Origin: Eunapius fragilis
Taxonomy: Eukaryota; Porifera; Demospongiae; Spongillida; Spongillidae
Direction: 5' to 3'
DNA: 64,000 bases
Assembly: GCA_963681505.1 (NCBI GenBank)
Contig: OY811978.1
Coordinates: 4,310,230 to 4,374,229 of the forward strand
The notes under the pieces were generated by a model, which ran no database searches, was not told the DNA's origin, and saw only the letters and a program-made list of their open reading frames with translations. The translations under genes and the position numbers were made by a program. Below, in pieces: positions 189 to 63,608 of this stretch (positions are counted from its first letter, which is position 1; each line of letters begins with the position of its first letter).

Positions 189-2673
189 TATCTCCTGGTC
201 CTGTTGGAAACATGAGAGTAAGCAGTACATCTGTGAACCAACTAACAGTGACCTGGACCCCTCCCACTACTGGTGGTGTTCCTACCAGCTACAATGTCAG
301 TATCAATGACAGCAGTAGTCCTGTGGTCATACCTGATAATGGATCATCACTGTACACCCACACCTTCACTGGACTGATCAGTGACACACTCTACACTGTA
401 TCAGTGGTGGCCATCAACTGTGCTGGGACTAGCAATGTGAAATCAATGACCAAATGGACAGGTTTACCTACTATAGTGATTATAATGAATAATTTATAAA
501 TGAAACAGGATTAATTATCATTCAGATTGGGTTATATGCAAACAAACGTAATATGCAGACTTTAATATTCATACTTAATTAAGTGTATGCATGTCAAAAT
601 GTGTGCTCCAATCCTTACCTCTATCAAACCATTCATTCCATTCACAGTGGCACAGCCTCCAAACAGTAACAGTATTAGTGTTATGTTTATTCTGGATAGT
701 ACCGAGACCCTCCCCCTTCTGTACATCATGTGGACACCTGTGGTAGGAAATAATATGTCACATGACCCAGTGATGAACCTTTGGTCACCCCCAGGGAGGC
801 AGTGTGACCATGTACACAGTGAGGGTTGTTGGTGATGGTACCTCTGTTGGTGAAGGCACCACTAACTGTACCACTTCAACATGTCTCTATGTACAAGAAA
901 TCTCTACCTTTGCCACCAGTTATGTCATCTTTATTGCTTCCATAAATGGAGATGGTATTGTGGGTCCTGCAAATAATTCAACTATTAACGGTTAGTTAGC
1001 TATGTGACAAATTTGTATTAATGGTTAGTCAGCTGTGGGGCTAATGTGCATAATTAATCTTCATGCTAATTTTAGAGAAGGGTATTTTCTCGTGGCAAGA
1101 ATGTATAGTGAAAATCCAAAAGTAATTTATGTAATGTTCTCATATAAGGCAGGGGTGGAGGATTCAGAAGCAGAAATACTATTATGCTAACATAAAAAAA
1201 GAAAGTCTGATAACATGAAACTAAAATACTGGATGTTCCAATAAATTATTTTTGTAGTCATCAGCAACATCACAGTGGTGAACTATGGTGTTTCCAATGC
1301 ATCCATTCAATGCTCATTTCGGGACAACCAGTCTCTCTACTGCTTAGTGTGCTGCAGTACTGATCCAACAGCTCCTCCTAACTCAAGTGTGTACAACATC
1401 TCCTCTACCAGAGGCACAGAGGTGACTGTTGACCTTGATGGCCTCACCAGTGGTCAGACTTACTACTGCAAGGCAGCAGCTACCAACAACAATTCCAGTC
1501 CTTCCAACTGCACCTTTCCTGGGTTTGGTGGTGTTAATATGTTTGTCACCTTCACTACAATGTTATCATCAAAGGACACACCTAACCCAGGTGATGATGA
1601 TCTTTGGGCATGAAGACATCAATACTTGTTGATTTACATACATTACCTCTCTGTCCACACTAGGAGTTGAGATGCCTCTTCCAGGTATATTGCAGTGCCA
1701 TTATTCCCTGTGTAATGAAAGCCTCATCTGTTGACAGACCAGGTGGTGATAATCCTACTTGCCACTCTCCTCCCTACTGCTGCTGTGGTGGTAACTGTAG
1801 TAACAATCACAGCACTCTCAGCCATATGTTTCCGGAAAATACAAAAAGGTTTTGGTGCATCAAAAAGCTTTATGAGTGTGATTTTATATGAACTTTCCAT
1901 TATTTTGCTCCACCTCACATAATTACACACACAATTTATCATGCTTACCCATGCATCTATATTCACACAAATATGCACACATACATTTACGCACAGAGGG
2001 TGAAAGGTGAGTTTTCATGAACGGTGAGGTTACCAGCCCACTGGAGCATATATGTGTGTGTGGCTCGTGAGGTATTCTTTATCAGCCATAAAGCAACCCT
2101 CTGTGGGGTATGGCATTATTGTTGCCCTCAGTCAAAGCAGACATACTAGCCTTCATTGCCATACACAATTTGCAGCAACATTCTGAATAACTTTTGTGAA
2201 TACTCTTCATATTTGCAGACATCACAATCCGGCTGTGTGTGGTATTAATGCACTGTATGAAGAAATAACCTTACCGCAGACCCTAGCTAATCAAATGGAT
2301 GTGGAGACCCAGACAGCTACAATAGAGGTGGCTGCAGATTTATATTCTGTTCCTGACCACAGGGTACAGCAATTTGTAGCACAGTATGTGCCCATTGAAT
2401 TAAAAACCCTTTATAATCCGAGATCAAAACGTATTATTTTTAAAAAAATTGTCTTTGAGAACATTCCTGGTGGAAGCATAGTGTGAATTCAAACTAACCT
2501 ACTTTCTTTTTCAGATGCATTTAAACACTTCATCGTTAATGAAACCAGGCACCAAGCATATATATGGTGTCCTGGAGGACCCAAATTGTCCCACAAACAA
2601 GGAGACAGCCATCAATGAAGATCACAGACCAGACATCATGAACCTAGTAAGCGTAGCTATAAATGTACCTTAT

Positions 2674-2725
<52 letters not shown>

Positions 2726-3639
2726 ATCAATTTCTACACACCCAACTCAGCACAGCACATTTCCTGTCACTGATGATGGCTTCACTGTGTCTGCCATGGA
2801 AGACTTCTGGCATAAGGCATCTGGTGGCAATGAAGGTGTGTGGACTTTTAATGAGAGATTCGTAATCTCAATACACACACAGTATGCATATAGTGTATCC
2901 ACTGAACTAAACTGATAATTACATCAAAGGAATGGATTTTATCGTAGTGGTAGCAAGTGCCCTGTGTATTTTAAAAGGAATTGGAACCTGGTTCCATATA
3001 TGATTGATGGCTATATGAAAAGCATAATGTAAGAAGGTTACCTGATGAAGGAATGCAACGTGAAATGAAAGGTGCATGCATAAGCTGTTTTCCAGAGATG
3101 GGCATATGATCTTTTCCATTCATCTTAACCTGTACTACTACTATTACTGATTATGGTCATGTTCACCCAACCCGATCTGGCTCTGGTCTCTGAAGGTGAC
3201 TATGCTCTGCCTGTGGACCATAAAGGAGTATGTAAGAAGACTGAAGCACCAGTAGAGTATGCATGTAAGTTGTATGGTACATAGGTACTGGAGGTTAGTC
3301 ATGTAAGCTGTATGGTACATAGGTACTGGAGGTTAGTCATGTAACTGTATGGTACATAGGTACTGGAGGTTAGTCATGTAAGCTGTATGGTACATATCTA
3401 GTCAACTAAGCTGTTACTGTATGGTACATAAGTACTGAAGGTTAGTAATGGACGATCCTGATGTATTTTAACTAGCTCTAAGCAATGATGGTGGTATATA
3501 TAGTATACGTAGGTGTGGTCATTATCAATTTAGTACTTGCAAGTCAGTTACAACAGGCCCCATGTAATCACAATGCACACCAATGGTTTATGTGTATGTA
3601 TTGTAATGTCATACATCCATATTTGCAGCCGTTATCTGA
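189..3639 (+). CDS. Receptor gene A (5' partial): FN3-FN3-FN3-TM-long tyrosine tail
   Basis: Coding exons read as <189-461 (FN3-1), 648-742 and 795-990 (FN3-2, split by a 52-nt intron), 1258-1590 (FN3-3), 1664-1684 (stalk), 1738-1848 (TM), 1997-2006 (10-nt microexon), 2219-2363, 2515-2646, 2751-2835, 3196-3264 and 3629-3639 (tail). The signal-peptide and Ig exons lie upstream of the window. All junctions are GT-AG and phases match, so the frame stays open to TGA at 3637. The TM exon encodes a long Val/Ile/Ala/Thr-rich helix followed by a basic stop-transfer stretch. Tail tyrosines lie in ALYEEI, DLYSVP, HIYGVL, GDYALP and a terminal VEYASVI. pYEEI is the known preferred Src-family SH2 ligand, and VEYASV fits the ITIM consensus. 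The tail-4 acceptor differs from C, E and F, using the AG at 3194-3195. Function as a signalling surface receptor is inferred. Confidence 0.82.
2678..2719. repeat. (CA)n microsatellite in gene A tail intron
   Basis: About 20 uninterrupted CA units lie between tail exons 2 and 3. The C and E copies of this intron also hold CA-rich tracts (around 24780-24830 and 47199-47269). Confidence 0.95.
3265..3410 (+). repeat. 38-bp minisatellite, short array in last intron of gene A
   Basis: About four degenerate copies of the GTAAGCTGTATGGTACATAG-type unit start at the donor of the last intron. This is the short, probably ancestral-like state of the arrays in C and E. Confidence 0.9.
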
Positions 3640-7209: not shown

Positions 7210-7292
7210 TATATAAGGTTATATCGCCCATGCCAGAGCACGGATACTTCATTATTGGGTGATCCATTTCGATCTTTTATATCAGGAAGGGA
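7210..7292 (+). promoter_or_regulatory. Putative TATA box and noncoding 5' exon of gene B
   Basis: TATATAAG at 7210-7217 precedes a block (agcacggatactt...) that is conserved upstream of D at 33914-33996, while the sequence around it drifts. The block ends at a strong donor, GTAAGTAC at 7293, about 2.3 kb before the signal-peptide exon. The reading as TATA box plus untranslated first exon rests on position and conservation only. Confidence 0.35.
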
Positions 7293-7915: not shown

Positions 7916-7937
7916 TGCACCTATCAATGGTAACTGC

Positions 7938-7985
<48 letters not shown>

Positions 7986-9019: not shown

Positions 9020-9061
<42 letters not shown>

Positions 9062-9587: not shown

Positions 9588-12387
9588 ATGGTCATTACAG
9601 AGTTTCACAAATGTGTACATACTTTAATGTATGCAATTATCGGGCATCTAATGTTGCAAGGTATGTTCTTTTGCATGGACAAAATTGGAAATGAAAAGCT
9701 TTAGTGGGCTCATATACCAATTAAAAGATTGGTGAATCTAAATATATTAAATATATAATTATGCATTTCTTAAGAGCATATTTAACATCTCAAAAATGCC
9801 TCAAGATATTGTATAGCATAGGTGTATGTTTAAAAATTGCTTGGTTCTGTCTCTTCACTTCCCTATCTTCAATAACCAAATTCTGACACATCTTCTTTCA
9901 TCTCAGGTACATGCCAACAGTTCACCCTCAGTTACCCACCTAAGGATACCTACTCATGTCCTGGAAGCAACATTACATATACCTGTGTTCTTTGCTCAAG
10001 ATTTGCTGGTGTGACCACAGTATGGAATGGATCAGCCTTTAACTGTCCCTCCACTGGAAACCAAATATCACTCCACCAGAAGACAAATGGAGTAGTTGCT
10101 CCAACTGCTAGCAGATTGTGTGGCAAATTCTCTGCTGTGACAACAAATGTCTCCACTGATGGATATTGCTACACATCTGTCCTCACCATACCTGCTGTTC
10201 AGGCTTTGAATGGGACCACAGTTATGTGTATAGATGGGCTTAATGGAGCTGATGTGGGAAATGACACTGTGATTGTGAAGATGGCAGGTTAATTTTTTTT
10301 ATATTATTTTTTAAGTGGTACATTGTTCATGCCTGGAAGACAGCAATCACATGGAGGGTATGTGCAGTTGGGCTACCAATTTGACATGCATTGGCTGATA
10401 TAATCAACATCATGCACTTAGCATTGATATACTTTGGTTACAATGATGTCAATCCACACCTCCCTCCCCCAGCATTTCCTGGTCCTGTTGGGAACATGAG
10501 AGTAAGCAGTACATCTGTGAACCAGCTAACAGTGACCTGGACCCCTCCCACTACTGGTGGTGTTCCTACCAGCTACAATGTCAGTATCAATGACATCGGT
10601 AGTCCTGTGGTCATACCTGATAATGGATCATCACTGTACACCCACACCTTCACTGGACTGATCAGTGACACACTCTACACTATATCAGTGGTGGCCATCA
10701 ACTGTGTTGGGATCAGTAATAAGACATCAGAAACAGAATCAACAGGTGATTTAAAACACATATGTACGATTTAGCATGTGTGGTGTGTGTGTGGTGTGTG
10801 TATGTGCATGCGTGTGTGCATGCTGTCTGCATGTGTGTTTCACGAAGTGAGTGCTCTACTATTACCTCATTCAAACACAGTGGCACAGCCTCCAAACCAT
10901 AACAGTATTAGTGCTATGTTTATTCAGGATAGTACCAAGACCTTCCCCCTTCTGTACATCATGTGGACATCTGTGGTAGGGAATAATATGTCACATGACC
11001 CAGTGATGAACCTTTGGTCACCTCCAGGGAGGCAGTGTGACCATGTACACAGTGAGGGTTGTTGGTGATGGTACCTCTGTTGGCGAAGGCACCACTAACT
11101 GTACCACTTCAACATGTCTCTATGTCCAAGAAGTCACTACCTTTGCCACCAGTTATGTCATCTTTATTGCTTCCATAAACGGAGATGGAGATGTGGGTAG
11201 AGAGACTTGTACCACTATCAATGGTTAGTGTGGTATGAGTAACAGATAATCAATTATCACAGTAAAATCAAAATTTGGACATTCTGGAAATTTTTTAATC
11301 CTTTATAATGCTGCCAGATGTTTTCAATTTATGCAATGCATACTTAAAGCCTGGATGAGTAGGTCTTTTGTCCCATGTTTTGAGTTGCCATTCTTACAGA
11401 AATGTGATACCTCTGAAATTGCCACTAAGCATAATGTATAACAAACAAATCAAAGCGCAATATTTATTTTTGTAGTCATCAACAACATCACAGTGGTGAA
11501 CTATGGTGTTTCCAATGCATCCATTCAATGCTCATTTCGGGACAACCAGTCTCTCTACTGCTTAGTGTGCTGCAGTACTGATCCAACAGCTCCTCCTAAC
11601 TCAAGTGTGTACAACATCTCCTCTACCAGAGGCACAGAGGTGACTGTTGACCTTGATGGCCTCACCAATGGTCAAACTTACTACTGCAAGGCAGCAGCTA
11701 CCAACAACAATTCCATTCCTTACAACTGCACCCTTCCTGGGTTTGGTGGTGTTAGTGAGTTCGTTACCTTCACTACAATGCTATCATCAATGAAGGCACC
11801 AGTCCAAGGTAATGATCTTCAGGAATGCATACAATCATTTAATACTTGTGTTGTATTTTTTCATGTGCATATTTTTATTGATGTGGTACCTCTTCCAGGT
11901 ATGTTGTGTTGCTGTTATTAAATATATAATGAAAAACACATCTATCGGTAGACCAGAAGGTGATAATCATACTTGCTACTCTCCTTCCAACTATCACTGT
12001 GGTGGTAACCATAACCATCTTGGTGCTCTCTGTGATTTGTGTCCAGAATAAAAGAAAAGGTTTTGGTGATATGTGGAAAATTCATATTGATTTATTTGCC
12101 CCCCACCCCACCCCACACACATATTTAATGTTTTCCATCCAGGGAGCATACCTGAAAGGTCAGCACTGCAATAGTGTATGTGCATGATGCAGCAAGCCTT
12201 ATCAGCAGCAGGAAATAAGTGAATGTCTTGCATAAATTTACTCAAGAATTGCAGTTACATAATATGTCTCACAGCTAAATTTACTTTATCCAGGCATCAC
12301 ACGCCCCCCTCATGTGACATTTATACAATGTATGAAGAAGTACCCTTACCACGGACCCCAGCTGATCATATGGATGGGGGTACCTAG
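9588..12387 (+). CDS. Receptor gene B: SP-Ig-FN3x3-TM, short tail
   Basis: Exons: 9588-9660 (signal peptide, starts MVITEFHKC, hydrophobic core VHTLMYAIIGHLML), 9907-10287 (Ig-like), 10473-10745 (FN3-1), 10881-10975 and 11028-11223 (FN3-2 with a 52-nt intron 10976-11027), 11476-11808 (FN3-3), 11952-12059 (TM), 12143-12158 (16-nt microexon) and 12294-12387 (tail). The spliced length is 1569 nt, an exact codon multiple encoding 522 aa. The Ig exon has paired cysteines, a tryptophan (TTVWNG) and a YTSVLTIPAVQ segment, as in Ig folds. The tail keeps only TMYEEV, then ends at TAG 12385-12387, where C and E read a glutamine codon. No stalk exon and none of the later tail exons or the 38-bp repeat were found downstream. 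It is closest to gene D. A short-tail partner of the long-tail genes is inferred; late truncation is the alternative. Confidence 0.83.
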
Positions 12388-15400: not shown

Positions 15401-15419
15401 GTCAATATGAATTCAATAT

Positions 15420-16200: not shown

Positions 16201-16412
16201 ACGCTGGATGGCAGGGATAAGTGGTGATGTCATTTTGTTGTTACTCCAATTTGCTCACCTATAGCCTAGCAATGAAATATTGGTAGCGCAAATATCATGC
16301 AGTGTTTTGTGACTTAAAATCACGTGTGTGATGTATTGGCATACGTATATTTAGAGTGTAGTTGTGCGCATGCTCATTTGATTTGGATGCTCCTTTTTGT
16401 TAACGAGTGAAT

Positions 16413-16599
16413 CGTGACTGAGAGCCAAGTTTGGGGGTCCAAAGACACTACAAATTGGCGACGAGGGTGGGATTCGAACCCACGCGTGCAAAGCACAATG
16501 GATTAGCAGTCCATTGTGCTTTGCACGCGTGGGTTCGAATCCCACCCTCGTCGCCAATTTGTAGTGTCTTTGGACCCCCAAACTTGGCTCTCAGTCACG
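16413..16599. repeat. Perfect 187-bp palindrome built from LTR end and tRNA-Ser 3' half
   Basis: Two 90-nt arms flank a 7-nt loop TTAGCAG (16503-16509). The inner arms equal the 3' half of a tRNA-Ser (GCT anticodon) from CCA through the T arm, variable arm and anticodon stem, and the loop is the anticodon loop. The outer arms are the last 40 bases of the LTR. The tRNA half is complete only from the anticodon stem to the 3' end, so this is not a tRNA gene. Confidence 0.88.
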
Positions 16600-17015
16600 T
16601 CCTAAAAGATTGGGCCCTCCTTGCCCAACAACTACCAAGGGGAGCTTTGTCTCTTGTCCTTTGTACATTACAGTAACATCTGCCACCCCTAAGACTTTAA
16701 GTGATTCTCCTGTATATGTACACAATTTGATATGTGTATCATGCAACACAGGGGCTACGGATTTGCCCCAAGTTGACTTGAATGCTTGTTGACTCATAAC
16801 AGTTCTGGCTGCCCCCGTATCTATTTCCATTGACACAGGCACCCCATGTAATTTCAAATACGGAAGTGGACGGATAAGGATCCTACACTGTCCCGGGTGA
16901 GACAATTTCTTTTGACAGGATGGCCCAGTAGCAACTTAGCAGAGGAGTTCAAACCGTATGTGACTAGAAAGTTAGAACTTAGTGTTTTGGATGGGTGCGT
17001 GTTGTGGGGAGCAAG

Positions 17016-17230
17016 CACTGCATGAAAGTTTGGATTTACAATATATTTACTACTATTCAAATGCGGTGCAAATGTGTATGTAAATTTTGTGTATGTGACA
17101 TTTCCGCTATAGTAAATGAATCCTTTATATTTACTATTGTGTTGATGTCACATATACCATATTTACTAACACATATGCACCACATTTGAACAGTAGTAAA
17201 TATATTGTAAATCCAAACTTTCATGCAGTG
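17016..17230. mobile_element. MITE nested in the LTR element
   Basis: A 215-bp non-coding unit with terminal inverted repeats of about 40 bp (CACTGCATGAAAGTTTGGAT at the left, mirrored at the right) and AAG on both sides as a possible target duplication. It lies between the protease-like and integrase-like parts. Confidence 0.75.
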
Positions 17231-20370: not shown

Positions 20371-20506
20371 TATACACATGAACACGCATCCATGACTTAA
20401 GTGGACTATTTGGCAAGGACAAGGGAGGGAAAAGCTAGGGAGAGCGGAGGAGGGGGAGGCTTTACTTGATTTTAACATGTACCGTACGTTCCAATACACA
20501 GCCCAG

Positions 20507-28360: not shown

Positions 28361-28369
28361 ATTGAGCTT

Positions 28370-28873: not shown

Positions 28874-28877
28874 TTAT

Positions 28878-30960: not shown

Positions 30961-30999
30961 CATGCTCCCCACTAGACTCTGCCATCGATCTGTCCTGCT

Positions 31000-42201: not shown

Positions 42202-42202
42202 G

Positions 42203-44380: not shown

Positions 44381-44425
<45 letters not shown>

Positions 44426-47225: not shown

Positions 47226-47263
<38 letters not shown>

Positions 47264-48677
47264 CACACATGTGCACGAATGACGCTAACTCATGACATTC
47301 GGCAGCCACATTAGTGCAGCATACATTTGTCCTGTCATCAGTGATGGCCGCACTCTATCTGCAAAGGAAGCCTTCCACTATGAGGAACCAGGTGTGTGGA
47401 CTTGGGGGGACTCGGCGCACGTACATACACCACACATAAAATTGTGTACTGATGATTTTACAGTAATGGGCTGGGAACAATAGCTGCAGTATAGCATAAG
47501 GGTAGCAAAATGACATTGAGCACAGACATATATGCGATAATCATTAAATTTTTAAAAGAACACTTGATAAAGGAATGTACATGTAACCTGACATCATCAT
47601 GTGGTACTATCTTAAGTACCACAGCAAAATCCATCAGGAATATGGACTCTTCATTTCCATGTATTCATTTGCTCCCCCATGCAATTGGTGTACCTTCAAG
47701 TCCTGGCCCTGGTCCCTGAAGGTGACTATGCTCTGCCTGTAAACCATAAAGGAGTATGTAAGAAGACTGAAGCACCAGGAGAGTATGCATGTAAGCTGTA
47801 TGGTACATAGGTACTGGAGGTTAGTCATGTAAGCTGTATGGTACATAGGTGCTGGAGGTTAGTCATGTAAGCTGTATGGTACATAGGTACTGGAGGTTAG
47901 TCATGTAAGCCGTATGGTACATAGGTACTGGAGGTTAGTCATGTAAGCTGTATGGTACATAGGTACTGGAGGTTAGTCATGTAAGCTGTATGGTACATAG
48001 GTACTGGAGGTTAGTCATGTAAGCTGTATGGTACATAGGTACTGGAGGTTAGTCATGTAAGCTGTATGGTACATAGGTGCTGGAGGTTAGACATGTAAGC
48101 TGTATGGTACATAGGTACTGGAGGTTAGTCATGTAAGCTGTATGGTACATAGGTACTGGAGGTTAGTCATGTAAGCTGTATGGTACATAGGTACTGGAGG
48201 TTAGTCATGTAAGCTGTATGGTACATAGGTACTGGAGGTTAGTCATGTAAGCTGTATGGTACATAGGTACTGGAGGTTAGTCATGTAAGCTGTATGGTAC
48301 ATAGGTGCTGGAGGTTAGACATGTAAGCTGTATGGTACATAGGTACTGGAGGTTAGTCATGTAAGCCGTATGGTACATAGGTACTGGAGGTTAGCATGTA
48401 AGCTGTATGGTACATAGGTACTGGAGGTTAGTCATGTAAGCTGTATGGTACATATATACTGGAGGTTAGTCATGTAAGCTGTATGGTACATAGGTACTGG
48501 AGGTTAGTCATGTAAGCTGTATGGTACATAGGTACTGGAGGTTAGTCATGTAAGTTGTATGGTACATAGGTACTGGAGGTTAGTCATGTAAGCTGTATGG
48601 TACATAGGTACTGGAGGTTAGTCATAATCTGTGTCTGTACTTTAATGACATACGTATACATTGCAGCTGTTCTCTGA
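42715..48677 (+). CDS. Receptor gene E: intact SP-Ig-FN3x3-TM-long tyrosine tail
   Basis: This is the best-supported full gene. Exons: 42715-42787 (signal peptide), 43518-43910 (Ig), 44063-44329 (FN3-1, two codons shorter), 44481-44575 and 44628-44823 (FN3-2), 45436-45768 (FN3-3), 45850-45870 (stalk), 45926-46027 (TM), 46103-46115 (13-nt microexon), 46233-46377, 46566-46693, 47315-47391, 47701-47790 and 48667-48677. The sum is 1944 nt, encoding 647 aa plus stop. Rough residues: signal 1-24, Ig 25-155, FN3-1 156-244, FN3-2 245-341, FN3-3 342-452, TM 460-490, tail 494-647. Tail tyrosines occur in NAMYEEV (about 511), DGYSTP, HTYSLL, FHYEEP, GDYALP and the terminal GEYASVL. The product is expected to be a type I membrane receptor with SH2-docking sites; ligand and pathway are unknown. 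Confidence 0.87.
44381..44423. repeat. (GT)n microsatellite in gene E FN3-1/FN3-2 intron
   Basis: About 20 GT units. The same intron holds GT-rich tracts in B (10776-10830), C (22019-22053) and F (58623-58634), so the tract is an inherited, length-variable feature. Confidence 0.93.
47199..47269. repeat. (CA)n microsatellite in gene E tail intron
   Basis: A CA tract with a few CAACACT interruptions lies just before tail exon 3. Confidence 0.93.
47791..48627 (+). repeat. 38-bp minisatellite, about 22 units, last intron of gene E
   Basis: Same unit and same starting point (exactly at the donor after 47790) as in gene C, with a different copy number and its own variant units (for example GGTGCTGG variants). 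It ends about 40 bp before the acceptor of the final 11-nt exon. Confidence 0.96.
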
Positions 48678-52231: not shown

Positions 52232-55200
52232 ATGGTCAACACAGAATTCCACAAATGTGTACATACTTTAATGTATACAATTATTGGACATCTAATCACG
52301 CAAGGTATGTTTAAAGTGTCTGGAGAAGGTTGAAACGGTGAACTCCATGCATGACAAATTTTACATATACATGTGCATTGATTAATTTCAGTTTAGGATC
52401 AATTTCTGAATGCAGTCGACGTCATTATATATGCCTATAATCATAAGATGTTGTTAAAAGGAGCTGCAACGTTGAACTAGTGCACGTGTTATTTATTCAA
52501 CATGGGGCATTAAAAGTGGTAAATCTTCCGAACGCTTTGGGCTATCGACTTCATATTTTCTAAGTATCAATTCTTAATATAATAATATTAAAATAAAATT
52601 TAGCCCTACGACTTAATTTTGTGGGACATACAACGGGCGTTACCCTAGGGGTTCAAAGCTTAACTATCTCTCAGCAGAAGCGTCCAGATCTCAATTGATA
52701 CATTCGTAGAAGAGTCCAGTCCTTTTTTATCCGTCCTGTCCATTGATTTTTACTTTATATAATTATACGTTACGAAGATATACCTGTGCAAAGTGCGCGC
52801 ACATATTAATTCCCGCTCTATTTGAGCCAATGACTTAGTCACTCGCCTCCCATACTCGGATTACCTAAATCATTGTCGCGTATCGAGCGGGAAAAGTGCT
52901 TACAGCTATATCCGGCTTCGTAAGTCGTAACGTGTCAAGTAAAGTTTACAATGAACGAACAGAACGGATAATAAAAACAGGACTCTTCTACGTATGCATG
53001 CACCTATTTTAAAGCAATTTGAATCCAATGGTTGGAAACGGCCCTTGTATGCCCTAAGGAAAGGAATTTTTAAAAATTAAAAAAAAAAGTCGATGGCCCA
53101 AAACGATCCTGAGCATCAGTAGATATAGCAATTGTAACGTGAAGCATTTTATCACTTTTTATTTACAAATCCGCGTGGCATCACTTTGTCTTGCACTGTC
53201 CGATAAATCATACCTAGCACATGGGACATGCAGAGACCAGTTATATCATCCGAATGCCGGTGTCGCAGTGTATATTGTCCCCCCTTTTTCTGTCCCCCCG
53301 GACAACCTATCCTAGGATACATTGTCCCCCGGACATCCTATCCTAGGATACATTGTCCCCCCTGGACATTATATCCTAGGATCAATTGTCCCCACCATGT
53401 GTATATTGTCCCCCCGGCCCCGGACATTACATCTTAGGATCAATTGTCCCCTTACCGTAGTTCACCCCATGCAGGACTATATATACTTATTCCCTCTCTC
53501 CCCCCCACATATGCATAAGCCGCCCAACTGTACATTATGCAACTCGGGAAGTAACGTTAATGACGTCTTAACTGATAATGATTGACTACAACGCGCTAAG
53601 GAAGCGTTTGCAAAAAACGCTCCGTGCACAGCCACGAAGCATTTCTTTACCACACAGCATCTGGATTCTTCTCACACGTGTCATGAAACCATTCACCACA
53701 TTGATCGCACTCAGCTATCTGTTTTGCTTCTTGTGGTAGCCTGCAAATACAGAATACATCAATTTTTACTTCAGAAGTAGGACATCTTTTAATCTTTTAA
53801 TGGCTGTCGCTGTGTACAAGGGAAGATTATTCATTAAACAATCCAGCAAATGATTTTGCATAAATTGTTGATGTAGAAAACTGTACTGGGGGATACTCCA
53901 TTACATAATGTAGTAGCAAATGCCAAAGCAAACAAACCGCCACAGTCATTGGAGCCTCTTTGTCTTTGAACAGGCTGAAACTTCAGAAAAATCTGTATCT
54001 GAGAAGAACACAGTAATGATGCAATCTGCAGGTAGATCATTCCCATGCATGCATGCATTGCACAGTAGTAGATTTGTGCACAGAAGTGCAGTAGGCAAAC
54101 AAGACCCCATCCAGAAACATGTCCCAATTATTTTGCTTCTCACTGACTATCTTTATGGGTGACTTCTGAATGGTATGATTATAACGCTTAACTAAACCAT
54201 TGCACTGAGGGTGTACCAGAGAGACAAATAGTCATTTGCATACACTATTAACAAACTCCATCACTGATAATTGATCCCAGAGCTCCAAACACATGTATAC
54301 AAACAAGAATAATAATACATGTAGATATGTACTGTACTCATCAAGCTCAGTTCATTGGTGTTAACGGGATGCAAATTCATGTAAAAGGTGCAATGCAGAT
54401 ACATGTTCTGTACCTGCATATCATGCTATACTGGAACAACGCCACACCCTCTGCTGTCTTGTCTTTCAGTGGAGCTGCTTCGGGCCATTTTGAAAAATAA
54501 TCCATGAGGGTCACAGTATATCAATTGCCCGATAAAGTCTTGGGGAGGGGTCAAATGAGATCAATGCCAGCATGTACAGTACAATGCTATGAAATAAATA
54601 TGTACGTGGTTGCAGTGTCATTTACTTTCATGTTTTAAAATGGCAGTAACAGTCATATACAAAATTAATTTTGGCTCTGAAATAGCATGAATTAGCAATG
54701 TGTACTATTGCAAGAAAAATTATACATCACTTTTAAATACACTTGGCACCTCAGAAAATTGAAGCAGTGTTGATATGTACATGTACACAGCAGTTTGGGA
54801 GTATTTTGTGTATCTGCACTCAAATAAAATGAAACAATGTTGAGTGATAATCAATAGGTGCCAACTAATCAAAACTCCTGGTGTTTTTGTCCAGACCTCA
54901 ACCTTTTTACCATTACCATGCTCATCCCAGTCATAATGCACAAAAGGAAAAGGTCAAGCATATATATGAGGATGTGTGCACATACAAAGTACCTGGTTCC
55001 ACGCTTGTGACTTACAATGTAACAGGAAGTCGACCTTAATAAATTTTGTGTCATTGACCCTTTGGCAGATTTCACAGTTCTTAGCAAATTGGCAGATATC
55101 ATCAGCCATATGCTCCCAATAAATCCTTGATGTTATCTTTCTACTGTCTTGTCCCATCCAAAATGTCATCCTAGGATATGAAGAGTCAGCTCTATTTCTC

Positions 55201-58200
55201 ACTAGGAAAAAACTTTAGTGTTCACTTTGTTAAGAATAAGCTTTTTACTAAGTCTAGTTTTGACTGAACTGAACAAGGTACAATCATAATACAATTTTAA
55301 TGCAAGATGTATCATAGTATTATGAACTGACCAGATACCACGTACATAACAATTCAAAATATTAGGTATAGGACTAAAATTGTGTCATGATATTTAACTT
55401 GTTCATTGTACTAACACTGTCATCACAGAGCCACTCTCTACCAGAACCATTCTCTAAGCTGACGGTGTGCATGACCACGTATCTTCAGGTGATGCATGAC
55501 AGGCTGTCAATATGCAAAAACGTTTGACTTCTTCCGCTACTACTTTTCTACATTGACGCTCAGGGGCTGTTGCTCATTTTCAGATGCAAAACACCACGGA
55601 CAACTTTGAAGTTTTGGTTTACTCTTCTTCTGAGTGAGCCTTTCTGATCTTTGTGTGTATACGACTGGATAGCAGCGATGATCGAGACACTGAAAAACCG
55701 CGTCGTGTCTAGCCAATCTGTTAGTTAACCCACTTGTATAACATTTTAATAACATTACTATATACTTGGAGAGGGGACGCAATATCCTAGGATAGATTGT
55801 CCGAGGGACATTATATCCTAGGACACAGTGTCAGGGGGGACACTTTTTCCAGGGGGACAATATAAACCCCGACACCGGGCATGGAGTTACTATAAAACTG
55901 TATGAGTTACATAAATCAATTTTCGCAACCGTAAAACGCTTTCCATTCAAAATTCGTACGCGTGTTTCCAAACATTTCGTCTCTATATATATATATTTTT
56001 AGTTAATTTCATTACCGTGAGTACAATATTCTCCAACCCGTCGGATTAGAAATCCAGGTATACATACATGTATCTCCTGATACATGTGTCATTTACAGAG
56101 GAGGCCTGCATGTATCTTTCACTTGAACGTTATCCGTTACATACACATTACTGTGCAAATTGAGTACATGCTTTCCCCTCTGTAGATAACTACAGCCCAT
56201 TCAATGTATGCCTAGATCATTGGCGCGAATCGTTCACTTTCTTTATAAAGCTATATCCTAGCAACGGATAACATTTAAGTCAACGATCTGAGCAATTAAA
56301 AATAACTACGGGATGCATCTATAATCCCACCAAATTTGACTAGCTAAAGGCACGTGTACCTGGTGATATGTGGAATTCTGACCAGCGTGGTTGGTGAACT
56401 TTAATACTCATGCATGGCAGCGACATGACAGTACCAAATTGCATTATACAGATAAAATAGGTGTGGGAAAAAGTAGATTGAAAAAAAAGCGTTGTAAGGT
56501 TGCGAATATATGCAGATTTATGTATTACACTTTTTATAGTGATAACATTATTAATAACCCCAGAAGGCCGATTTTGCTGGGCACTGTCCCAATTACTATT
56601 TTGCATATCGGCGCCAATGTTTCATATTGCAACTGTTATGAAATAAAGCCGGTGTGCATGCACTCTATGATTATATAGGATACCACTGGTTTCACCCTCA
56701 TTCATCTCATCAGGAGATCATATACATAAGCTAACAGATATCAAGTTCACATATTTTTGTCTAATGTTACAGGTGTATATACAACTTATATTTTTGGTGC
56801 TTGGACAACACATCAATGCCATGGCTGTGTCTGGTAACACACAGTGTGAAGAGGAGTAAAAGCTACTGGGCACAAGTACATGGTGACATCATGTGCACTG
56901 ATTCTTAACTGTTCTAAAAACTACGCTCAGTGGCTTCTCGAGGTCTTTAGTACACACACTCAAACGTTTGAGAGGGAGAGAAACAAAGGTCAATCTTAGT
57001 CTTCTTAGACTATTAACCAGTCATGGGACAGTTTCAATATGTGTTATCGCTATATATATTTAAAGTGCCCTGCATTTGAATCTCTATACGCCCAAACGAT
57101 TAACGCTACCGACTGACTATCTGCAGCACATCCTATACCACTCAATTTCTTTATAGCACATTTTATTTCTGTCTTTTAGGTCATCTCCGTATGGTTCATA
57201 TAAAGGGCGTTCCCTAAAACATAAATTTACTTCTGCTGCAGAGTTAGGATTTGAATGCACATTTATAAATTTTGAGGCACTCTTTCTTTTTTTTTTTGTA
57301 TTCATGTTTAACAAACTTCAAGACTTTGGGTAGTATATACTGACAAACATCTTCCATTTTTATCAGGTTCATGCCAACAGTTCACCCTCAGTTACCCACC
57401 TAAGGGTACCTACTCATGTCCTGGAAGCAACATTACATACACCTGTGTTCTTAACTCAAGCTCAAGCTCTCACAGTGTGACCACAGTATGGAAAGGATCA
57501 GCCTTTGACTGTCCCTCCACTGGAAACCAAGTAGCTAACAGACTAGCACTCTACCAGAAGTTAGATGGAGTAGTTAACACAAATGCCAGTGCATCATGTG
57601 GCAGACTTTCTGCTGTGACAACAAATGTCTCCACTGATGGATATTGCTACACATCTGTTCTCACCATTCCTGCTGTTCAGGGTCTGAATGGGACCACAGT
57701 TATGTGTGCAGATGGGGGTACTGGAGCTGGTGTGGGAAGTGACACTGTGATTGTGATGATGACAGGTGTGTTAGGGTTGTGCAGCACATTAATACATGCA
57801 CCACTGTGCTGCACAACCTCAGTGCAGAACATGGAATGATTTTAATTTAGTTGCTCATCATAGGAGTAAATTAAAGCCATCCATTTATTGAGAATGTAAG
57901 CTATATCTAGCAAAAAAAATCAATGCACAATTGGGGTAGGGGGGGGGGGGGGGATGAAATGAAAAGGTTATGAGTAAATTGAAAACAATGAAACAGGTCT
58001 ATTTTTAGTATGTATGCCTAATGTCCTACAAAATTCAGCCTGCTTCATTGTTTTCTTTTCCGACACAATTATTTCCTTCTCTATTATCTTGCAATCCTAC
58101 ATCCTGAAGGGAATTTTTTTATTAACTGGGTTTTGTTCACAAAGTAATGGATCATACCTGCTGTACACTCAGTAATGCTTTGAATTAGTTCACACCCTTC

Positions 58201-61200
58201 TACAATTAATAGTGATTGATTGCTTTGTACTCTACAACCTCCCTCTCCCAGTATCTCCTGGTCCTGTTGGGAACATGAGAGTAAGCAGTACATCTGTGAA
58301 CCAGCTAACAGTGACCTGGACCCCTCCCACTACTGGTGGTGTTCCTACCAGCTACAATGTCAGTATCAATGACAGCAGTAGTCCTGTGGTCATACCTGGT
58401 AATGGATCATCACTGTACACCCACACCTTCACTGGACTGATCAGTGACACACTCTACCCTGTATCAGTGGTGGCCATCAACTGTGCTGGGACCAGCAATG
58501 TGATATCAGAAGTACAATTTACAGGTGATTGCATATAAAATCTAGATGTACACGACAATGAATATGGATGGAAACCATTTAGTTAGACTTGCATGCTAAA
58601 TAGCATCTTTCACCTCCATTCTTGTGTGTGTGTGAGAATTTTTTTAATGCCATATGTGTGTAGTGCATTTATATTTACAATATTGTTACCTCGAGTTACC
58701 ATATTATTTGTCTGCATGTAAAACATGGGACAGGCAAGATTGCTCTGATCCTTACCTCCATCAAACCATTCCTTCTATTCTCAGTGGCACAGCCTCCAAA
58801 CAGTAACAGTATTAGTGCTATGTTTATTCTGGATAGTACCGAGACCGTCCCCCTTCTTTATATCATGTGGACATCTGTGGTAGGCGATAATGTGTCACAT
58901 GATCCAATGATGAACCTTTGGTCACCTCCAGGGAAGCAGTGTGACCATGTACGCAGTGAGAGTTTTTGGTGATGGTACCTTTATTGGTGAAGGCACCACT
59001 AACTGTACCACTTCAACATGTCTCTATGTCCAAGAAATCTCTACCTTTGCCACCAGTTATGTCATTTTTGTTGCATCCATAAATGGAGATGGAGTTGTGG
59101 GTCCAGAGTCTATTACCACTATCAATGGTTAGTAGGTTTCTAAGACTGAATGAGTCTTATATTCCTCTTAAAGTTTATACAGTTAATTATGCATTGCGAA
59201 TTCATTAAACATTAAGTTGCTTTAGTCTTAAGCACGATTCTCTGTAAAATAACTATTCATTTGTCCCATCCTATGTTGGCATTCACAATGCTTGCTTACT
59301 AACTTTAAATTTTTTCATGGGTGGATTATGAAGAATTATTGAATTGTTGATTAAAGCAAACGAATAAATTTGCATTGATTTGCTTATGAATGATAAGGAC
59401 TCAGACTCCTATAAAATAAACACTGAATTTCAATTTCTCTTTTGTCCAGTCATTATCAATTTCACAATAGTGAACTATGGTATTTCCAATGCATCCATTC
59501 AATGCTCATTTCGGGACAACCAGTCTCTCTACTGCTTAGTGTGCTGCAGTACTGATCCAACAGCTCCTCCTAACTCAAGTGTGTACAACATCTCCTCTAC
59601 CAGAGGCACAGAGGTGACTGTTGAATTTGATGGCCTCACCAGTGCTCAGACTTACTACTGCAAGGCAGCAGCTACCAACAACAATTCCAGTCCTTACAAC
59701 TGCACCTTCCCTGGGTTTGGTGGAGTAGATGCAATTGCCAGTTTCAGGACTGCAACAACAGAATCAGGTGCACATGTCTGCAAAGCAGGGTTGCAGGGTG
59801 CAATTGAAATTTAATGTAGTTATATTTTAAAAGAGCTTTTTCTTTCCAACAGTAACCTCGCCTAGAAGTGCAACATCAGTCTCAGGTATTAATAGCATTG
59901 ACAAAATGTATATTGCTTACCAAATCTATTGTTGTAGCAATCATCGCCGCCATCATTATCCCCATCGTTGTCCTTTTTGTTGTGATGGTCATTATTGCCA
60001 CAGTGATGGCCATCTTCATTAGGAAGAGAAAAGGTCAATTGATCGTGATTTTAATATTTTTGCGTATATCAGCAGCAAAACAAACTCCATTGATTGTACA
60101 TACATACAATATTATATCGTGTTCATTTGCTTCAACCCACATACACACACACGGACACACACACATGCACACATAAACATATTTTACACTTGCACATGCA
60201 CATGCACTTGCAGGGCACAAGTCAAAAAGGTAATTAGGACCTCTTGCCACAGGGTAAGGTTAACGCTGGCACGTTCGATTTATAGTAGCAAATAGGTAGT
60301 CATATGCATGGTAGTGCCGTGTGCTGCATCGTTACCAATTCATTTACAGATTTCCATCCACTTCCAGATGAAGCAGAGCTAGGGAGTGAGGCTTGTGGAA
60401 CGCGTAGCATAGCTCATGTAGTGTTAGATACAAAACGCTGCTGCGGTTGTATAATTAATTCTTATCTGCATGAAAATTCGAGTCAATTTTATGATTACCC
60501 GTACTAGATCATATGCGCGCACACCTGAAGGTGATGATACAATATACGCCGAATGTCGGGACTCCCAACTCATAAATGCAGCCAATCAGACATCAACAAC
60601 CGCTAACCATATTTATGACTCTCTTCAATATAAGCAGGTATATTTCGAGACATGTGGAGATGGTACAAGATTACATGTATACGTGCATCACTGTTATATT
60701 AGAAAGAGCGGGTATTACCAACCCCTCACCTTTATTATAAACGTGACCGTCCTAAATACCACAGGTGGAAAAAAACGCGTACAATCATTTTGGAATCATA
60801 ATTGCGTGAATGAGCAGTAAATTCAGAGCATTTTTAATGTAGGTAAAATTAAGTATTGATTTTTAAAATTTTAAATCAATACTTGATTCTACCAACACCC
60901 TTTTTCCCTGCATGTGAAAATTCTCTCCCCCTCCACCTTATTTGCTCCCTCCCCCTTTTAATACTTCTCCCTACGCGTCTGTATTGCTACTGGTCATGCT
61001 TATTCATGTATTATACTGGTGTAAATCCGGTAACAAACAGGAATTACCTATAAGACAATTCCCCTTTTGGTTCTTACCTTTCAGATAAATCAATCAAAAT
61101 ACATATCAATAGTAGGGCATCCTTACGAACGTCTGGAGGACCCAAATCGTCCATCGAAGAAGGAAGTGACTTCCATTGAAGGAGTCGGCGGGCCGAACGA

Positions 61201-63608
61201 CGTCATAGGCCACGTAAGTGCATTGGAATATGCATGCATACGTCGTTTAGTCTATAAGTGAGATCGAACATGTGTAAAGGCATTGATACAAGCCATTTTG
61301 GGATAAGGAATGCACTATTCTTCGGTGCTAACAGAAACCTTTCATAATATGGCCAAGCTGCAGCATGTTGAGAGACCAACCATCATGTAGGGTGTACTTG
61401 GTGGCCAACATGTAGGGTGTACATGGAGGCAAACCTTGTAGGGTGTACATGGAGGCCAACAATGTAGGGTGTACATGGAGGCCAATCATGTAGGGTGTAC
61501 ATGGAGGCCAACCATGTAGGGTATACATGGAGGCCAACCATGTAGGGTGTACATGGAGGCCAACCATGTAGGGTATACATGGAGGCCAACCATGTAGGGT
61601 GTGGGGAGGCCAACCATGTAGGGTGTACATGGAGGCCAACCATGTAGGGTGTACATGGAGGCCAACCATGTAGGGTGTACATGGAGGCCAACCATGTAGG
61701 GTGTACATGGAGGCCAACCATGTAGGGTGTACATGGAGGCCAACCATGTAGGGTATACATGGAGGCCAACCATGTAGGGTGTACATGGAGGCCAACCATG
61801 TAGGGTGTGGGGAGGCCAACCATGTAGGGTATACATGGAGGCCAACCATGTAGGGTGTACATGGAGGCCAACCATGATGGGTGTACATGGAGGCCAACCA
61901 TGTAGGGTATACATGGAGGCCAACCATGCATGGTGTACATGGAGGCCAACCATGTAGGGTGTACATGGAGGCCAACCATGTAGGGTGTACATGGAGTCCA
62001 ATCATGTATATAGGGTATACATGGAGGCCAACCATGTAGGGTATACATGGAGGCCAACCATGTAGGGTGTACATGGAGGCCAACCATGTAGGGTGTACAT
62101 GGAGGCCAACCATGTAGGGTATACATGGAGGCCAACATGTAGGGTGTACATGGAGGCCAACCATGTAGGGTGTACATGGAGGCCAACCATGTAGGGTGTA
62201 CATGGAGGCCAACCATGTAGGGAGTACATGGAGGCCAACCATGTAGGGTGTACATGGAGGCCAACCATGTAGGGTATACATGGAGGCCAACCATGTAGGG
62301 TGTGGGGAGGCCAACCATGTAGGGTATACATGGAGGCCAACCATACAGGGTGTACATGGAGGCCAACCATGTAGGTATACATGGAGGCCAACCATGTAGG
62401 GTATAATTGGAGGCCAACCATGTAGGGTGTACATGGAGTCCAATCATGTATATAGGGTATATATGGAGGCCAACCATGTAGGGTGTACATGGAGGCCAAC
62501 CATGTAGGGTGTACATGGAGGCCAACCATGTAGGGTATACATGGAGGCCAACCATGTAGGGTATACATGGAGGCCAACCATGTAGGGTATACATGGAGGC
62601 CAACCATGTAGGGTGTACATGGAGGCCAACCATGGAGGGTGTACATGGAGGCCAACCATGTAGGGTATACATGGAGGCCAACCATGTAGGGTATACATGG
62701 AGGCCAACCATGTTGGTAGAAGCTATCATCTTTCACTACTGGGCACACATGGTTTTTTAAAGGATATTTTTGATGTAAGATGAGTGCCAGGCACTAGAAT
62801 TGTGTCGTGAGCATGCATCAACATTTCTTAAGCAACAGGAAATACTAGTTGTTCGCATTAAAAAGAAAAATACACATATGGTATATGTGTAATGAGGGTA
62901 CTGCCATGCGAAAAAATTAAACACACAAGCATTCCTGTGCTCATGCATGCTTTTCCTTATGCAGCATGTCATCATGCCAGTGGATGACAGCTATTCTGTA
63001 CCACTGAAAACCTCAAAGCCAGAGGGAATAGGTATATGTATACTAATGTATTCCTTATGTACAAATTATATGTACACATGTAAGTGCACGTTTGGATGAA
63101 CACACGCTTATTGTCACACACACATCCGTACACACATTATAGTTACAATAACTCATGATCAAGCTGTGAACTATCAAGTCCTGGCTCTTGTCCCTGAATG
63201 TGAATATGCTCAGCCTGTGGACCATAAGAGATTATGTAAGACGGCTGAAGTGTCAAGGGAATACGAATGTAAGTTTTAGGTCTCCGTATATTTACATGTA
63301 TGCTTAATGCGTCTGCAGTACGTGTGTATATAGAAAAGCAGAGGAACGATTTGATATGCACAGTTCTTGTACTGCCTTGGGATCATTCCAGATAATCATT
63401 GTACCTCACATCAAGGAGTGCTATATTAAAATACTAAATAAGCGCAGTGATGATGAGAGGGGCTTGGTACTATCATGGCAGTCTTCTGAACAGGATATAA
63501 TGTTGAAATTTCATGTCGGAAATTTGCATGTACACACATCATCGATGTATTGCATCTATGTGCATAATAGTGAAATGATATACATCTATGTTTGCAGCTG
63601 TTCTCTGA
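52232..63608 (+). CDS. Receptor gene F: diverged intact SP-Ig-FN3x3-TM-long tail
   Basis: Exons: 52232-52304 (signal peptide, MVNTEFHKC start), 57367-57765 (Ig), 58252-58524 (FN3-1), 58785-58879 and 58932-59127 (FN3-2), 59450-59767 (FN3-3), 59853-59885 (Ser/Thr-rich stalk), 59938-60033 (TM), 60214-60229 (16-nt microexon), 60508-60637, 61085-61213, 62965-63031, 63179-63268 and 63598-63608. The sum is 1926 nt, encoding 641 aa. Intron 1 is about 5 kb and carries a Ginger-like transposon. The ectodomain exons are nearly identical to the other copies, but the TM (AIIAAIIIPIVVLF...) and tail are strongly diverged. Tail tyrosines lie in TIYAEC, HIYDSL, HPYERL, DSYSVP, CEYAQP and the terminal REYESVL. 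The Ig loop region is the longest of the family. Tail phase pattern and motif order match gene A. Confidence 0.84.
53261..55874 (-). mobile_element. Ginger-like DNA transposon in intron 1 of gene F
   Basis: Terminal inverted repeats (TGTCGCAGTGTATATTGTCC at the left; the right end read inward is TGTCGGGGTTTATATTGTCC) are flanked by the 4-bp duplication CCGG (53257-53260, 55875-55878). Minus-strand remnants include an integrase zinc-binding segment ending NCEICQRVN (about 54960-55200), part of an integrase core (KWPEAAPLKDKTAEGV, about 54430-54500), and a Ulp1-type cysteine-protease motif QRQRGSNDCGGLFALAFAT (about 53890-53970). Ginger elements are known to carry a Gypsy-like integrase, TGT ends and sometimes Ulp1 or OTU proteases. 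ORFs are eroded; the copy is dead. Confidence 0.7.
53276..53455. repeat. Subterminal TCCTAGGA repeats of the Ginger-like element
   Basis: Repeated TGTCCCC...GGACAT...TATCCTAGGATA modules, three to four at the left end, and inverted counterparts at 55770-55850. This arrangement resembles transposase-binding subterminal arrays. Confidence 0.8.
55879..57366. other. Remainder of gene F intron 1
   Basis: Non-coding, AT-rich, with no recognised element. It ends with the acceptor of the Ig exon. Confidence 0.5.
61385..62712. repeat. 26-bp minisatellite, about 51 units, in a tail intron of gene F
   Basis: The tandem unit is GGTGTACATGGAGGCCAACC plus ATGTAG (26 bp), with GGTATACATGG and GGTGTGGGG variants. 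It lies between tail exons 2 and 3. The antisense strand is nearly stop-free in all three frames because the period is not a multiple of three, giving long spurious ORFs. It is unrelated to the 38-bp repeat of A, C and E. Confidence 0.96.

Follow-up and report, generated by a model that had tools for sequence, protein, structure and literature searches.

Among vertebrates, the KIR, LILR and SIRP receptors are encoded as long-tailed and short-tailed members lying side by side, with tyrosine motifs, and the ectodomains of the Alr proteins of Hydractinia carry several unusual immunoglobulin (Ig)-like domains. Among the closest described systems are the fester co-receptors (FcoR) of the Botryllus fuhc locus, for which passages of one report give 53 loci, proteins of 520–610 aa and a core Y-x-x-I/L/V motif; the same passages state that ITIM/ITAM-type motifs have been reported for Hydractinia Alr candidate genes (PMC12065747). 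A single Hydractinia chromosome carries 40 Alr or Alr-like genes, some of them potential pseudogenes, according to the section of the source used here (PMC11876637). Self/non-self discrimination occurs in sponges (PMC5450542, in part), and an Ig-domain receptor tyrosine kinase and adhesion molecules of Geodia cydonium have been linked to adhesion or recognition in passages of two papers (PMC11999971, PMC12018476). In the passages found, the sponge recognition genes beyond aggregation factors are unclear at the family level.

We analyzed a 64-kb stretch of chromosome 8 (C8) of the freshwater sponge Eunapius fragilis (the window), which contains no N and holds six genes in tandem, A–F, each built on one order of exons: Ig, FN1, FN2a, FN2b, FN3, TM (table 1). 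The preliminary description, right in supposing a sponge, had placed this cluster at positions 189–63608, and these limits are right: base 189 is the start of the gene A FN1 exon and base 63608 the final base of the gene F stop codon. The Ig exon of gene A lies just outside, at -405 to -13 (locus L031), and the gene is cut by the window edge. All six genes differ from one another, with 77–89% identity to the gene E exon for Ig and 79–84% for FN1. A single exon plan, as previously proposed, holds for the ectodomain and TM exons and not for the tail, since B and D end in T1. The spliced models of B (9 exons, 522 aa, stop codon in frame), D (9 exons, 530 aa, terminating at a stop codon) and E (13 exons, 631 aa) are complete open frames lacking internal stops, and every junction is AG/GT and in phase. 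Gene F is clean over its first 11 exons to T2f (586 aa) and T4+T5 are also in frame, with no exon found that bridges T2f (phase 0) and T4 (phase 1). In gene C the reading frame shifts within the FN3 exon, near 23026, and we regard this gene as a likely pseudogene, or the shift as a sequence error. Gene A reads in frame from Ig to TM; its tail is possibly damaged, because no AG directly precedes T4 and no terminal exon was found behind it. These models support the view that the products of the window genes are type I membrane proteins, whose distal domain is Ig-like and whose tails are rich in tyrosine.

Table 1. Positions of the six receptor genes, their exons and associated repeats in the window
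Feature	Position	Strand	Components
Gene A	189–3263	+	FN1 189–461, FN2a 648–742, FN2b 795–990, FN3 1258–1590, TM 1738–1848
Gene A tail		+	T1 about 2217–2354, T2 2515–2649, T4-like 3174–3263
Gene B, short tail	9588–12387	+	SP 9588–9660, Ig 9907–10287, FN1 10473–10745, FN2a 10881–10975, FN2b 11028–11223
Gene B, rest		+	FN3 11476–11808, TM 11952–12059, mini 12143–12158, T1 12294–12387 (TMYEEV then stop)
Gene C	20485–26407	+	Ig 21172–21564, FN1 from about 21717, FN3 22874–23178 (frameshift)
Gene C tail		+	T2 24025–24153, T3 24900–24950, T4 25253–25342, terminal exon 26397–26407
Gene D, short tail	36393–39705	+	SP 36393–36465, Ig 37257–37637, FN1 37781–38053, FN2a 38187–38281, FN2b 38334–38529
Gene D, rest		+	FN3 38784–39116, TM 39242–39349, mini 39430–39445, T1 39588–39705 (YRDR, without YEEV)
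Gene E, complete long-tail gene	42715–48677	+	SP 42715–42787, Ig 43518–43910, FN1 44063–44329, FN2a 44481–44575, FN2b 44628–44823
Gene E, FN3 to mini		+	FN3 45436–45768, TM 45926–46027, mini 46103–46115
Gene E tail		+	T1 46233–46377, T2 46566–46693, T3 47342–47391, T4 47701–47790, T5 48667–48677 (EYASVL-stop)
Gene F, long divergent tail	52232–63608	+	SP 52232–52304, Ig 57367–57765, FN1 58252–58524, FN2a 58785–58879, FN2b 58932–59127
Gene F, FN3 to mini		+	FN3 59450–59767, stalk 59853–59885, TM 59938–60033, mini 60214–60229
Gene F tail		+	T1f 60508–60637, T2f 61085–61213, T4 63179–63268, T5 63598–63608 (EYESVL-stop)
Intron between FN2a and FN2b, dividing the second FN3-like domain, gene E	44576–44627	+	52 nt, same size in all six genes
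38-bp minisatellite, gene C T4–T5 intron	25341–26345	+	18 donor-bearing units (strict pattern)
38-bp minisatellite, gene E T4–T5 intron	47788–48622	+	22 donor-bearing units

The locus resembles the FcoR family, as partly seen in its report, in being a large linked set of type I receptors with a distal Ig domain and long tails bearing Y-x-x-I/L/V, and in size (522–631 aa for B, D and E); it differs in that FcoR combines sushi with two C2 Ig domains (PMC12065747), whereas one FN3 and two FN3-like domains are found here and no sushi in E or F. With the Alr genes, compared by description only and from part of the source, it shares clustered Ig-superfamily receptor genes (PMC11876637), and the single cysteine-rich Ig domain followed by FN3-like domains sets it apart. 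By analogy, the adjoining long- and short-tail members with tyrosine motifs may be likened to the vertebrate paired receptors, although canonical ITIMs are only occasional here and the TM of B and D lacks a charge. Proteins with Ig-like domains are also what it has in common with Geodia in the passages available (PMC11999971, PMC12018476), but unlike the Geodia kinase, E and F have no kinase domain according to Pfam. A receptor tyrosine kinase was rejected for the window genes, as gene E ends in EYASVL-stop, B and D stop in T1, and neither E nor F has a kinase recognized by Pfam.

The first exon reads like a signal peptide. In the Ig exon, C27, W40, L97, G107 and C112 are invariant in 21 members, and C27, W40, L97 and C112 correspond to the landmarks of Ig strands B, C, E and F (with the E-strand L-x-I). 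With a profile of these 21 members and E up to 5, the PDB gave 255 matches (best E 0.0027), of which the 60 listed all bear Ig-superfamily names and three have E below 0.01; many are near-identical antibody chains with short alignments, and because the FN3-3 profile draws antibody chains as well (7/22), such matches are by themselves a weak sign. Pfam searches of the 21 members reached a best E of 0.0031, the Ig models matching in one member each, and an AlphaFold model of the gene E exon was unusable (pLDDT 29.5). Judged by its landmarks and this profile, the distal exon codes for an Ig-like domain rich in cysteine. FN3-1, the first of the three domains originally proposed as FN3, is recognized by Pfam (fn3, E about 1e-12), and FN3-2 and FN3-3 resemble FN3 in pattern alone, without Pfam confirmation; a Pfam scan of proteins E and F (E up to 0.1) listed fn3 and neither sushi nor kinase. 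The TM stretch of the short-tailed B and D contains no charged residue and so gives no indication of coupling to an adaptor.

Across the whole genome there are 123 matches to the Ig exon, or 116 places once neighboring fragments are merged by hand, and 107 to a TM-plus-tail exon; together they are spread over 12 contigs. Around the window, C8 from 4.02 to 4.83 Mb (0.8 Mb) holds 38 Ig places, merged by hand from 41 rows. What was taken for a six-gene cluster is one section of a far larger array; genome-wide there are roughly a hundred further family places, the family comprising roughly 100 loci. The long tail of the window genes is a local variant, its exon T4 having 16 copies within 0.66 Mb, four of which match at only 24 of 30 residues. 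The suggestion that the family is undescribed agrees with the open-licence PMC literature searched, where no description of it was found; the searched text of the E. fragilis genome note has no match for "immun" or "allorecognition", and that of the E. muelleri genome paper none for "immunoglobulin" or "fibronectin".

The tail motifs named in the preliminary description are largely present: YEEV occurs in B, C and E and YEEI in A, and YxxL is found as YSLL in C and E, YGVL in A and YERL in F, but YEEV is lost in D, which has YRDR. A separate, commoner short tail is found across the genome, and Y-E/D-x-V is present in most aligned tails. In the 49 aligned short tails (48 places, L045 and L046 being one place), N-x-(A/S)-Y keeps its N and its Y in all 49 and the following G is kept in 48, and the Y of the first motif is present in 43 and absent in 6. 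Over nine scanned tails, which are related and therefore not independent, core Yxx[ILV] was counted 20 times against a shuffle mean of 8.6, with none of 2000 shuffles as high; each of the five long tails scanned has 3–5 such motifs. The canonical ITIM, [SIVL]xYxx[ILV], was rejected as a general family feature, since its four occurrences fall in three of the nine tails (F has two, L032 and L037 have one apiece) and 315 of 2000 shuffles were as high (mean 2.07); it is absent from E, B, D, L038 and both short tails scanned. Over eight genes, T4 has a dN/dS of 0.47 (pN 0.081, pS 0.164), while the 200 nt upstream in six of those genes differ by 29–49% in 13 of 15 pairs, which argues that this part of the tail is real coding sequence. 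The first 28 codons of T1 in eight genes gave 1.23, so that part is not clearly constrained.

The terminal exon was sought on the + strand, in 69 kb and in eight further loci, as AG followed by 11 nt that encode S-V-[I/L/F]-stop. The 69 kb contain three such exons, each at the predicted place downstream of T4, in C and E (EYASVL-stop) and in F (EYESVL-stop), and the exon was found at four places in the further loci (L032, L033, L037, L038); the same search found none behind T4 of A, L034 or L039. The terminal EYxSV(I/L) motif is thus confined in the window to C, E and F, always as SVL, and the short tails of B and D lack it. The last residue is L in all seven exons found although I and F were allowed, S-V being fixed by the search; in L033 and L034, a stop codon interrupts T4 ahead of EYA. 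The class I PDZ-ligand consensus is S/T-x-Phi, and the terminal SVL is, from its sequence, a possible PDZ ligand. Every unit of the gene C minisatellite repeats the T4 splice donor AT|GTAAG, and read-through of T4 in gene E yields EYACKLYGT-stop in place of EYASVL-stop. Repeated splice donors in the long-tail genes could, to judge from these sequences, switch the C-terminus between EYASVL (phosphotyrosine/PDZ) and the dead end EYACKLYGT.

Selection was estimated from the 30 best matches to gene B, a choice that favors similar copies, with 11 rows dropped for truncated or frameshifted exons, including FN3 of gene C. Pooled dN/dS was 0.68 for Ig, 0.84 for FN1, 0.57 for FN2b and 0.51 for FN3; pervasive positive selection was not found, all four values being below 1. 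Close pairs gave 1.09, a value biased upward because the pairs were picked for low pS. Variable Ig sites make up 32/48 positions in loops versus 17/83 elsewhere, the loop borders having been drawn after the variability table was seen; the pN/pS bootstrap ranges overlap (loops 0.59–1.30, rest 0.36–0.82), and the synonymous rate is uneven along the exon. As read from these alignments, the pattern shows variability focused on the putative loops rather than pervasive positive selection. In a Sawyer-type test, permutations were as extreme in 0/300 for FN3, 238/300 for Ig, 73/300 for FN1 and 272/300 for FN2b, supporting gene conversion only for FN3.

We read these genes as a lineage-expanded family of tyrosine-docking type I recognition receptors of roughly 100 loci, with a probability of about 0.55. 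The distal Ig domain would bind ligand through its variable BC, C'–E and FG loops, on a stalk formed by the FN3-like part. Clustering would lead to phosphorylation of the tail tyrosines (YExV, NxAY, YxLL) by Src-type kinases, for which the genome has candidates, and the phosphorylated tyrosines would recruit SH2 or PTB proteins. The combination of a shared ectodomain with one of several tails (the common short, the local long and the truncated B/D type) may give different outputs from similar recognition, as in paired-receptor systems. The ligand may be self/non-self, as in allorecognition, or microbial, and the evidence does not separate the two.

An allorecognition role is plausible by analogy. 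Its full form, an allorecognition complex proper in which polymorphic members decide sponge fusion or rejection through homophilic or receptor–ligand matching and tyrosine signaling, is in our view a tentative proposition: multigene clusters of Ig receptors whose tails carry Yxx[ILV] are what the consulted parts of the FcoR (PMC12065747) and Alr (PMC11876637) reports describe, and the density of Ig places around the window and the concentration of variability in the Ig loops fit it, but pooled dN/dS stays below 1, and in the Amphimedon graft transcriptome cell-adhesion genes were not significantly enriched, with neither receptor nor immunoglobulin mentioned in the main text as available (PMC5450542). 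We hold it similarly uncertain, and still unlikely, that these receptors serve innate immunity or symbiosis by binding microbial ligands, a repertoire expanded in the germline of a filter feeder to cover many microbes and not a self-matching system; the large copy number over 12 contigs, the tail diversity, damaged copies (C, possibly A) and the moderate Ig divergence between paralogues favor such a repertoire, although no familiar pattern-recognition domain is among the Pfam domains found. Tandem Ig and FN3 domains are a typical arrangement in adhesion molecules, and the genes could instead encode mainly structural adhesion proteins whose Ig/FN3 part binds neighbors, whose terminal SVL anchors a PDZ scaffold and whose tyrosines serve turnover through YxxPhi endocytosis and not recognition signaling. 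The fit of the terminus to the PDZ consensus and its uniform final L speak for this, yet structural adhesion would not usually involve about 100 diverged copies, the common short tail has no PDZ-like end and nevertheless keeps N-x-(A/S)-Y throughout, and B, D, L033 and L034 end before any SVL; we think it improbable.

Least probable by far is a largely dead or assembly-inflated array, in which tandem amplification left few working genes. The gene C frameshift, the near-identical inverted pairs (L004/L005 at 99.97%, L022/L023 at 99.9% over 3.4 kb), near-identical copies on C9 (98–99%) and a k-mer completeness of 55.49% for the primary assembly, given in a part of the E. fragilis genome note, point in that direction, against which stand three complete clean models, the tail constraint, an N-free window and six genes that all differ. 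A sponge histocompatibility-type complex, with about 100 Ig receptors, one ectodomain plan, exchangeable tails (short with YExV/NxAY, long with many tyrosines, or truncated) and a C-terminal switch by splice donors, would be a bolder proposal that we consider doubtful. If it were true, the tyrosine-motif recognition signaling reported for Hydractinia and Botryllus allorecognition genes would reach Porifera.

Returning to the family of recognition receptors, a chromosome-scale, transcript-testable set of Ig receptors with conserved tyrosine tails provides concrete candidates in a gemmule-making freshwater sponge. Should their role be allorecognition or immunity, variable Ig receptors with tyrosine tails would be present in one of the earliest animal branches, through common descent of the signaling logic or through convergence. 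As for signaling partners, no SH2-phosphatase (SHP-like) gene was seen among the SH2 and PTP matches listed; among the kinase matches listed, one lies on C8 and none in C8 4.0–5.9 Mb, and four open frames on C9 appear, from their equal frame lengths, to join SH2 and kinase domains.

Searches with the exons of gene E as queries (for FN2b, the exon of gene F) show that the Ig, FN1, FN2a, FN2b, FN3 and TM exons are present on the forward strand in all six tandem genes, A to F, with the TM exon of gene F read separately and the Ig exon of gene A located in L031, a family locus reaching upstream of the window, which itself contains no N bases. The exon junctions of the six genes are canonical and mostly in phase 1, and the second FN3-like domain is interrupted by a 52-nt intron in every one of them. 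The first exon (MVITEFHKCVHTLMY..) reads like a signal peptide; it sits inside the repeat designated D8, and its splice junction keeps the phase in genes B, D, E and F. Spliced models give 631 aa from 13 exons for gene E, and 522 aa and 530 aa for genes B and D, both of which have short tails and end at a stop in the first tail exon, T1. The model of gene F is clean over 586 aa, is interrupted before T4 by one bridging exon that was not found, and is clean again across T4 and T5. The FN3 exon of gene C carries a frameshift, which was kept uncorrected, and gene A lacks an AG directly upstream of its T4 exon.

The genome searched comprised 218,937,333 bases in 24 contigs, the window occupying positions 4310230-4374229 of chromosome 8; the odEunFrag1.1 description gives 23 chromosomes and the mitochondrion for Eunapius fragilis, with chromosomes 8 and 9 at 9.93 and 9.79 Mb (PMC12616128). 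The Ig exon of gene B had 123 matches genome-wide (E up to 0.001), which were merged by hand into 116 places, a figure that counts in fragments, stop-bearing copies and distant relatives. These comprise 38 places around the window at 4.02-4.83 Mb of chromosome 8 (C8), 25 at 0-2 Mb, six near 5.6-5.8 Mb and one at 6.83 Mb of the same chromosome, and, elsewhere, 18 on C3, 13 on C9, seven on C4, three on C20, two on C7 and a single place on each of C6, C13 and C19; the third FN3-like exon has at least 150 matches. The assembly may have led to too high a count, because inverted pairs identical at 99.97% and 99.9% over 3.4 kb are found and near-identical copies occur on C9: such copies (C8:4560016/4627326 and 4648500/4671538, several on C9; orientation partly inverted) could be either very recent duplications or assembly artefacts.

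Within the ectodomain, FN1 corresponds to the Pfam fn3 domain (E about 1e-12), and FN2 and FN3-3 (the third such domain) appear FN3-like by pattern only. The distal (Ig) exon reached a best E of 0.0031 against Pfam among 21 members, and a profile of these 21, distant ones from other chromosomes included, gave 255 matches in the PDB with an E of 5 or less (best E 0.0027). All 60 of the matches listed out of the 255 are named as Ig-superfamily proteins (antibody domains, CD96, Dscam, perlecan, shark V-NAR). That number overstates its weight, because many of the 60 are antibody chains nearly identical to one another and such chains are also matched by the FN3-3 profile (7 of 22 matches, with weaker scores, best E 0.092). 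C27, W40, L97, G107 and C112 of the distal exon are invariant and agree with the Ig pattern; AlphaFold gave no help on the fold of this domain. We take the exon to encode a putative Ig-like domain carrying extra cysteines.

The exons of the long tail are local, with 16 copies of T4 and 13 of T1, all within C8 4.02-4.68 Mb; the short tail carried by the TM exon outnumbers them, with 107 matches genome-wide. Our alignment took in 49 of these 107 (25 best, 20 hand-picked distant and four from other loci under study), representing 48 places, as L045 and L046 are one place. Within N-x-(A/S)-Y, all 49 tails have the N and the Y, and 48 have the following G; in the first motif, Y-[ED]-x-V, the Y is kept in 43 and the V in 45; the tyrosine motifs therefore persist while the remaining tail diverges. 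By its pattern, the YEEV of the window genes would be the counterpart of this first motif. Four of the 49 short tails (L060, L063, L064 and L065, the last three identical) have cysteine in place of the first-motif tyrosine and may mark members with altered signalling. Across nine scanned long and short tails, the core Yxx[ILV] occurs 20 times against a shuffle mean of 8.6 (0/2000 shuffles as high), the canonical ITIM four times against 2.07 (315/2000) and an ITSM-like motif three times (25/2000), counts that are descriptive, because these are related tails, three of them assembled from exon matches.

The C-terminal motif EYxSV(I/L) proposed in the preliminary description was confirmed by a forward-strand search for AG followed by S-V-[I/L/F]-stop in 69 kb and eight further loci. 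The last exon is only 11 nt long (CTGTTCTCTGA) and encodes S-V-L-stop following the T of T4; it occurs at three places in the 69 kb (3' of T4 in each of C, E and F) and at four in the further loci (L032, L033, L037 and, with TAA, L038), and all seven read SVL, which we take to fit the class I PDZ-ligand consensus. The same pattern search on that strand did not find it for T4 of A, L034 and L039. The T4 frames of L033 and L034 reach a stop ahead of EYA, so the terminal exon of L033 may be a relic; of the 16 copies of T4, four agree at only 24 of 30 residues. In the intron after T4, a 38-bp minisatellite has the T4 donor itself, AT|GTAAG, as its unit; a strict pattern picks out 43 donor-bearing matches in the window (three in A, 18 in C and 22 in E) and a further 14 in L037. 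These arrays are possibly a series of competing splice donors; where the T4 donor is missed, the frame reads through to EYACKLYGT-stop.

In eight genes T4 has a dN/dS of 0.47 (pN 0.081, pS 0.164), and the 200 nt on its 5' side, compared in six of those genes, show differences of 29-49% in 13 of the 15 pairs (the remaining pairs: 0.06 and 0.18). T1 has 0.56 over four long-tail genes, and its first 28 codons reach 1.23 in eight genes including B and D. Translation of the long tail is therefore most likely, with constraint on most of it but not clearly on part of T1. Pooled dN/dS is 0.68 for Ig (30 unique sequences), 0.84 for FN1 (25), 0.57 for FN2b (25) and 0.51 for FN3 (13). Change in the Ig exon is focused on the loops: variable codons, defined by a nonsynonymous difference above 0.15 per pair, make up 32 of 48 loop codons and 17 of 83 others, pN against pS being 0.179 and 0.103 in the BC loop and 0.009 and 0.063 in strand E. 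These counts do not prove selection for diversity, because the loop borders were drawn after the variability table was seen and pS is also uneven along the exon; the bootstrap ranges of pN/pS overlap (loops 0.59-1.30, rest 0.36-0.82).

For a family of this anatomy, size and tail conservation, we infer a biological role in recognition: most likely, the Ig domain would meet a ligand and the tail tyrosines, once phosphorylated, would dock SH2 or PTB proteins, and similar ectodomains with different tails could give varied output. As to what is recognized, allorecognition and microbial recognition are about equally placed, with adhesion next. Among functional systems, the closest analogues are the fester co-receptors of Botryllus and Hydractinia Alr, the latter likened by description. 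The former comprise 53 loci of 520-610 aa with a core Y-x-x-I/L/V (PMC12065747), and for the latter a single chromosome is reported to carry 40 Alr or Alr-like genes (PMC11876637). The sponge genes differ from both in their ectodomain of one Cys-rich Ig and FN3-type domains, in which Pfam did not find the sushi feature of the fester co-receptors (genes E and F scanned), and in having short tails with an invariant N-x-(A/S)-Y. A literature search aimed at such genes, covering open-licence PMC papers, did not find a description of this sponge receptor family.

As to possible signalling partners, the genome has 70 SH2 matches. Four open frames on C9, at about 163, 165, 171 and 981 kb, have both SH2 and kinase matches, and the two domains appear joined there, judging from adjacency and equal frame length. 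Among the matches listed, no gene combining SH2 and phosphatase was seen, nor any kinase in C8 4.0-5.9 Mb. Tyrosine-phosphatase exons have 192 matches, most of those listed being on C10, mainly at 5.5-8.5 Mb, which suggests an expanded family; protein-kinase matches cluster on C15, C18 and C23, suggesting further tandem expansions.

Repeats and retroelement pieces in the window and in the family locus L037
Feature	Position	Remarks
Retroelement pieces	window 16327-18883	presumably Ty3-type
Direct repeats, 127 bp	window 16327-16453 and 18757-18883	two, identical
Integrase domains	window 17232-17858	
Gag-like frame with zinc knuckles	window 17809-18687	best E 7e-6, just under Pfam cut-off
38-bp minisatellite	window 25341-26345; 47788-48622; L037 3013-3621	units carry T4 5' splice site
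26-bp minisatellite	window 61385-62732	between the T2f and T4 exons of gene F

Minus-strand open frames of up to 449 aa arise from the 26-bp minisatellite and are probably false.
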